Positions 32,332 to 33,640 of a stretch of 64,000 bases of DNA are shown in pieces. The translations under genes were made by a program, and so were the position numbers. Origin of the DNA: an uncultured Pelagibacteraceae bacterium. Its GTDB lineage: Bacteria > Pseudomonadota > Alphaproteobacteria > Pelagibacterales > Pelagibacteraceae. The notes below the pieces were generated by a model. That model made no database searches and was not told the origin of the DNA. It saw nothing but the letters and a program-made list of their open reading frames with translations. The stretch lies in NCBI GenBank assembly GCA_902560245.1, contig CACELK010000009.1:1-64000 (forward strand). The letters run 5' to 3'. The first letter of the stretch is position 1. Each line of letters begins with the position of its first letter.

Positions 32332-32654
32332 CATATGTTGTAAATGACAAGTGTATAAAGTGTAAATTGACAGATTGTGTAGAAGTTTGTCCGGTTGACT
32401 GTTTCTACGAAGGAAAAAATATGCTTGTAATTAAACCTGATGAGTGTATAGATTGTGGCGTTTGTGAACCTGAGTGTCCAGTTGATGCTATAGTTCCAGA
32501 TACAGAAACTAATATTGATAAATGGTTAGAAGTAAACAAAAAATATTCAGAAATCTGGCCGAACATAAGTGCCAAAAAAGATCCACCTGAAGATTACGAG
32601 AAATATAAAGATGAAAAAGATAAATTTGAAAAATATTTTAAAGAAAACCTTTAA
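32328..32654 (+). CDS. fdxA: 7Fe ferredoxin (FdxA type)
   Basis: Electron carrier of 108 residues binding one 3Fe-4S and one 4Fe-4S cluster. The cysteines occur as [18 protein letters not shown] and [15 protein letters not shown], the arrangement of Azotobacter-type FdI. Its partner is unknown; in many alphaproteobacteria fdxA sits between a helicase gene and carD, as here. Its last 44 bases overlap the probable carD start in another frame. Confidence 0.95.
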
Positions 32655-33435
32655 AAAAACCAAAATAAAAAAACAAGTTAAAAAAGTTAAAATTATTAAA
32701 AAAGTTAAAGCTAAAGTAAAAATTAGTAAATTAAAAAATAAAAAAGTAATTAAATCTAAAATTATAGTACCTAAAAAGAATCTAAAAAGTTCACCAAAAA
32801 ACGATAATCTCAGAATCCAAAAAAATAATGAATTAAAACCTGAAATTAAAAAAATCAAAAAACAAGAAACTGAAAAAAAACTATATAAGCCAAAGGACTA
32901 TGTTGTTTACCCTAAGCACGGCGTTGGACAAATAATTTCTATAAGTTCAAAAACTATAGGAGGAATAGAAGTTCAGTGTTATGATATAAAATTTGAAAAA
33001 GATAAAGCAATTGGTTTGCTACCTATTAATAAACAAAATAATTTAAGACCTCTATCTACAATCAATCAAGTTAATAAATCAATTTCGATTTTGAAAAGTA
33101 AACCTAAAATAAAAAGATCAATGTGGAGCAGGAGAGCTCAGGAATATGAGCAAAAAATTACATCTGGAAAAGTTTATGATCTTGCAGAGGTAGTTAGAGA
33201 CCTAAATAAGGGAGATGATCTAATGGTTGATCAGTCTTACAGTGAAAGACAACTATTTGAGAAAGCTTACGAGAGAATATTAGCTGAGTTTCAGATTGTA
33301 TTAGGTACATCTATGGAAGAAACTCAAAAGAAATTGGATAAAGCTCTAAAGAGAAATTTGGCATCACAACAAACGCCACAAGTACAGGCACAACCACAAA
33401 CTCGACCCGAAGAAACATCTGAAATAGTTGAATAA
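32611..33435 (+). CDS. carD: CarD-family transcription regulator with Lys-rich N-terminal tail
   Basis: CarD proteins bind RNA polymerase beta and stabilise open promoter complexes. 274 residues from the ATG at 32611, against about 165-175 usually. The conserved part starts near residue 93 ([19 protein letters not shown]) and continues through [14 protein letters not shown] and the helical DNA-binding region. The first 90 residues are extremely rich in lysine and read like a histone-H1-type disordered tail. The C-terminal 20 residues are Gln/Pro-rich. An upstream ATG at 32569 is in frame but overlaps fdxA more deeply. No ATG lies between the tail and the core, so the tail is probably translated. 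Confidence 0.9.
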
Positions 33436-33436
33436 A

Positions 33437-33475
33437 AAAAAACGCTTCCCAAAATTTTTTGAGAAGCGTTTTTTA
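33437..33475. terminator. Bidirectional terminator between carD and the small basic gene
   Basis: AACGCTTC pairs with GAAGCGTT across an A/T-rich loop (33441-33470), flanked by A tracts on the left and T tracts on the right. It can therefore end transcription of carD on the plus strand and of the 23-codon gene on the minus strand. Confidence 0.88.
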
Positions 33476-33488
33476 AAAAAGAAATTTA

Positions 33489-33560
33489 TTATCTTCTTCT
33501 TCTTCTTTTTTTAGCTTTCTTTTTAGCTTTCTTTTTAGCTTTTTTTCTTCTTTTAGCCAT
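33489..33560 (-). CDS. 23-residue Lys/Arg/Ala peptide, histone-tail-like
   Basis: ORF of 23 codons plus TAA TAA. It starts MAKRRKKAKKKAKKK and ends in five arginines; every residue after Met is Lys, Arg or Ala. Coding DNA contains a 12-bp unit (AAA AAG AAA GCT) repeated about three times. Support for a real gene is strong for its size: GGGAG ribosome-binding site seven bases ahead of ATG, a -35 TTGACA and plausible -10 upstream, a 5' hairpin, and the terminator at 33437. Expected role is nucleic-acid binding or charge neutralisation, but no function is known to me. It is convergent with carD, whose product also has a Lys-rich tail. Confidence 0.7.
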   Translation of the reverse strand: MAKRRKKAKKKAKKKAKKRRRRR

Positions 33561-33583
33561 CTTTAGCTCCCTTTTTTAGTTTT

Positions 33584-33640
33584 GCGAATCAAAATGATTC
33601 GCTATTTCTTATTTTTAATTTTTTTAATAACTTATGTCAA
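33584..33640 (-). promoter_or_regulatory. Promoter and 5' hairpin of the 23-codon gene
   Basis: On the minus strand TTGACA (33640-33635) is followed after 17 bp by TAAAAA (33617-33612), a plausible sigma-70 promoter. Transcription would start near 33605, so the perfect hairpin GCGAATCA-N3-TGATTCGC (33602-33584) would sit at the very 5' end of the mRNA, ahead of the ribosome-binding site. It may stabilise the message or serve as an operator. The rest of the gap to 33749 is A/T tracts in which I see no gene. Confidence 0.55.

Follow-up and report, generated by a model that had tools for sequence, protein, structure and literature searches.

A conserved gene for a short polycation beside carD in Pelagibacteraceae, with a translation start region complementary to the loop of RF01814

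The stretch of SAR11 (Pelagibacteraceae) DNA analyzed here, 64,000 nucleotides long and referred to below as the window, carries on its minus strand (33560-33489) a short polycation ORF, MAKRRKKAKKKAKKKAKKRRRRR, convergent with carD. The SD and start region of this ORF, GGGAGCUAAAGAUGGCUA, proved to be exactly antisense to the loop of RF01814 ("rhtB sRNA"), a Pelagibacter RNA encoded elsewhere in the genome. Sequence comparison confirmed the locus as a monocistronic gene for a Lys/Arg/Ala polycation of Pelagibacteraceae, and RF01814 probably pairs with, and regulates, the peptide mRNA in the genus. In the mechanism that we propose, the trans-encoded RF01814 of Pelagibacter, of about 55 nt, would expose the antisense of the peptide SD and start codon in its hairpin loop; pairing of the loop with the leader would block ribosome binding and repress translation of a peptide that would itself bind and condense DNA and/or RNA, and that RF01814 would thereby restrain.

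The peptide consists of 23 amino acids (23 codons plus stop, 33489-33560, minus strand), contains solely Lys, Arg and Ala after Met, and has Lys or Arg at 18 of its 23 positions; a 12-bp coding repeat, pointed out in the preliminary description, was visible in the ORF. The other parts that this description had named, with no strand given, were likewise all present, on the minus strand: the TTGACA element (33635-33640), the perfect 8-bp leader hairpin GCGAATCA-TTT-TGATTCGC (33584-33602), the SD GGGAG upstream of the ORF (33571-33567), the stops and a terminator-like stem (33437-33474). The SD together with the start region, GGGAGCTAAAGATGGCTA, occupies 33554-33571 and is conserved across genus g1. 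The double stop (TAATAA) held for the window, but its second codon was not kept in the orthologs. The stem read as an intrinsic terminator (33474-33437) was bidirectional, also occurred in orthologs, and is not the peptide gene's own, being shared with the convergent carD. The latter, the syntenic neighbour, is a carD-like transcription factor gene on the plus strand (32569-33435; Pfam CarD_C and CarD_TRCF_RID). Its frame included at 32569-32880 a long Lys-rich N-terminal extension overlapping, in another frame, the 3' end of a ferredoxin gene, and the true start codon of carD is uncertain.

Conservation of the gene was surveyed at 80 loci obtained by a carD search. The syntenic gap in relatives, chosen beforehand as the place to refute the gene, contained an intact ortholog in the same orientation in 79 of the 80 loci, which strongly supported the self-contained polycation gene proposed earlier; the sole carD locus lacking one (L005) lies on a contig that stops about 113 bp past the carD match. 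Altogether, 167 loci with an intact frame yielded 91 distinct coding sequences. These encoded 50 different peptides, 20-35 aa long and composed of 55% Lys, 22% Arg and 19% Ala, with no acidic residues. Pairwise comparison of the 91 coding sequences gave a pS of 0.162, a pN of 0.020 and a pN/pS of 0.12 (the pairs are phylogenetically non-independent, the direction being clear), and the ratio of nonsynonymous to synonymous changes was 0.54 as against 3.5 expected under random mutation. The locus is thus almost certainly a genuine translated gene for a short polycation, as judged by comparative evidence. That the ORF is a product of chance in AT-rich DNA, or that the locus is a structured element without coding function, might be imagined because A-runs favour Lys codons and the leader is structured, but this is already contradicted by the low pN/pS and by the frame kept intact in 167 loci, and its probability is close to nil; moreover, the 64-kb window holds no second ATG ORF of 20-60 aa in which Lys plus Arg make up 60% or more, and none appeared in 20 Markov-1 simulations of it.

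Relatives of the peptide adjoined carD in genera g2 to g7 as well; with the window's own genus g1, each of the seven genera sampled from the family has the gene. None were found at six carD loci from a second family of the order, and three class-level pattern matches in Alphaproteobacteria encoded unrelated ORFs. Searches of Pfam at E up to 10 and of NCBIfam gave no match to this conserved peptide family. A phage origin or phage-borne decoys were rejected: no phage record was matched, and in the IMG/VR pattern matches both the peptide and the RF01814 loop were missing. SAR11 papers dealing with nucleoids, start sites or sulfur limitation contained nothing on the peptide gene.

The -10-like element of the window is weak (AAAAAT, 33611-33616, minus strand, within a conserved A-rich block) and a promoter scan of the window, with 14 found and 13.1 expected, was not significant alone, but TTGACAT was present in 156 of 158 orthologous leaders, 38-42 nt upstream of the hairpin arm. 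The SD was conserved as well. The leader folded with a z of -3.4 relative to its shuffles. The hairpin core CGAATC/GATTCG was near-invariant, the gap between the arms varied from 3 to 6 nt, and the outer pair was A-T in 43 cases, G-T in 23, G-C in 10, A-A in three and A-C in none; in other genera the leader hairpins often had different arms. The variable spacing and the occurrence of wobble pairs, with A-C absent, fit a hairpin formed in the RNA close to the 5' end of the transcript better than an operator bound by a protein. We place the 5' end of the peptide mRNA at or near the hairpin, the structure being backed by comparison and the end predicted from the promoter. The palindrome as a DNA operator of a regulon was rejected also because it is unique in its own genome, and the leader as a riboswitch because Rfam searches of the peptide gene yielded nothing above chance. 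The palindrome (33584-33602) holds two GANTC sites (GAATC/GATTC); GANTC is the CcrM methylation motif of Alphaproteobacteria.

The RF01814 loop UUAGCCAUCUUUAGCUCCC and the sequence GGGAGCUAAAGAUGGCUAA at the peptide start were exact reverse complements, an uninterrupted match of 18 nt. When the SD/start-region pattern was searched in 297 Pelagibacterales genomes, 198 of them counted as g1, it was confined to g1, and many genomes contained two sites. The second site of L084, which was examined directly, corresponded to RF01814 (82.1 bits, the Rfam gathering cut-off being 55), and the coordinates of pattern sites and of RF01814 overlapped in other genomes too, for instance G003, G013 and G026. 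RF01814 was detected in 172 of the 297 genomes, all of genus g1 (Pelagibacter), and was unlinked to the peptide gene, as in G013 (C1:160079 and C1:1317571). Genera without RF01814 retained the peptide, mostly with a different spacer behind the SD, for example GGGAGAAAAG or GGGAGGAACGGAG, and genus g7 displayed an intermediate spacer, GGGAGCTGACA. The motif goes back to Meyer et al. (2009; PMC2704228), in whose account about half of the examples were followed by a U-tract and no target was given; the literature examined here named none either, and the link between RF01814 and the peptide is new as far as this literature shows. An orphan RNA described in 2009 now has one precise predicted target, which makes its role directly testable.

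The main variable base of the complementary core was the G or A directly 5' of the AUG. A leader A went with a loop U in 9 genomes and a leader G with a loop C in 43, with no discordant case. On the carD tree three changes were needed, each of them matched, and the coevolution carries modest statistical weight because only one independent contrast fell on strongly supported branches. Predicted duplexes between g1 leaders and loops ranged from -25 to -36 kcal/mol, and those for the window leader and for the matched A-U pair reached -31 to -36 kcal/mol. MPK-type peptides presented one internal mismatch to the RF01814 loop. The start region itself (33555-33568) could form a weak hairpin, AGCU with GGCU around the AUG, which is broken in MPK-type orthologs, and part of the conservation of the target site may be due to this hairpin.

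RF01814 was not matched in the window's own assembly (G000, 84% complete), nor in its near relatives G232 and G248 (87%). In these three assemblies, which the carD tree places within the window's clade or close to it, the target site was intact. Their joint lack of RF01814 by chance would have a probability of about 0.3% if assembly gaps are independent, and for this reason the RNA has probably been lost, or has diverged beyond recognition, in the window's clade. Regulation by RF01814 is accordingly a genus-level finding and may not operate in the window's own cell. A two-mismatch site at G000:C1:28265, in the genome that was searched by pattern for further sRNA targets, was rejected, since it appears to belong to a hisA-like coding sequence and was taken as chance.

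Strand and flanks of RF01814 were surveyed in 55 loci. A stem variant, GAUAGUCC/GGGCUAUC, occurred in seven of them; it would pair U with G as a wobble on the Rfam strand but leave a C-A mismatch on the opposite one, and the reverse was never observed. An extended -10 (TGnTA...) ended 6-8 nt 5' of the stem in 54 loci, and AATGCA was found about 35-38 nt 5' of the stem in 52. The direction of the wobble, the extended -10, AATGCA and the T-runs downstream indicated an RF01814 RNA running antisense to the peptide gene, with its start expected at the stem. Downstream, a rhtB-like start codon followed within 40 nt of the stem in 40 of the 55 loci and a T-run of at least five in only 21. Both figures would fit RF01814 being mainly the 5' leader of rhtB, in which case the peptide mRNA would act on this leader, or one factor would bind both sites, instead of RF01814 repressing the peptide. 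We consider this arrangement unlikely: the gene downstream varies whereas the promoter side is conserved, and the loop spans exactly the peptide SD and AUG. In L098, L101, L112 and L115, a T-run came after RF01814 and the next gene was proC-like, not rhtB; the RNA is therefore not tied to rhtB. RF01814 appears to end at the stem in some species and may be read through into rhtB in others.

With regard to function, the peptide should bind nucleic acids because it has 18 positive residues in a 23-mer and no hydrophobic core. From its composition, we would give even chances to the condensation of nucleic acids suggested earlier, and the peptide is a candidate for packing or quieting the genome or the RNA of the streamlined SAR11 cells. 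The main rival on function is a small basic protein associated with the ribosome or with RNA, rather than with the nucleoid. Small ribosomal proteins such as bL37 and bTHX have similar size and charge, and the near-universal occurrence of the peptide in the family would suit such a role. On the other hand, the number of repeats varied freely among orthologs and no solved chain was matched at E up to 10, a search with little power for a low-complexity query; we regard a ribosomal or RNA-associated role as a minority possibility, of roughly one part in four.

Among known systems, the proposed pairing most resembles that of Chlamydia, where the loop of the sRNA IhtA covers the start codon of hctA, and HctA, a histone-like protein, compacts DNA and is lethal for E. 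coli (PMC4355289, PMC3469542). Both cases involve a trans-encoded sRNA with a loop over the start codon of the mRNA for a very basic protein, the complement being exact over 18 nt in the SAR11 case. They differ in that IhtA has three stem-loops, pairs over 6-7 nt and avoids the SD, whereas RF01814 has one hairpin loop and would pair over 18-19 nt with the SD included; besides, the sequences are unrelated and not homologous, the SAR11 peptide has only 23 aa, and repression is here a prediction. The peptide also recalls the histone H1-like Hc1 and Hc2 in its Lys/Ala-rich repeats and extreme positive charge, but it is far shorter, has no globular part and matches no Pfam family up to an E of 10. 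A short peptide with a small RNA antisense to its translation start is likewise reminiscent of type I toxin-antitoxin systems; in contrast with these, the peptide and RF01814 loci are unlinked and near-universal in the genus. The type I class typically involves a hydrophobic peptide, as opposed to the polycation of SAR11. Taken as a whole, a model in which RF01814 acts as a translational repressor of a polycation that binds nucleic acids, in the manner of IhtA and HctA, is the one we lean towards; the conservation and the complementarity were observed, and the repression and condensation are predicted. Its broadest form is put forward tentatively, as somewhat doubtful: that some of the most abundant ocean bacteria possess a dedicated switch, by which an orphan RNA of about 55 nt would silence a "micro-histone" of 20-30 residues through its ribosome-binding site, as an independent and minimal counterpart of IhtA-HctA in a free-living streamlined cell.

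The synthetic antimicrobial peptide MR-22, an amidated antibiotic lead that machine learning had drawn from UniProt (PMC10847306), was letter-identical to the ortholog MAKRRKKAKKKAKKAKKRRRRR of L023 and L039. The claim that gene callers would miss such a gene was consequently right in that annotation has largely overlooked it, and too absolute in that at least this one ortholog was annotated. MR-22 inhibits E. coli at 4-32 ug/mL (PMC10847306), which might suggest that the SAR11 peptide is a secreted antimicrobial. This is very improbable, as NaCl largely abolishes the activity (MIC 256 ug/mL; PMC10847306), so that killing of the MR-22 type should fail in seawater, and the peptide has neither a signal peptide nor an adjacent export or immunity gene within the window. 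The main text of the MR-22 paper names no source organism and does not mention Pelagibacter (PMC10847306); the identity with L023 and L039 traces the origin of this peptide to SAR11 orthologs.
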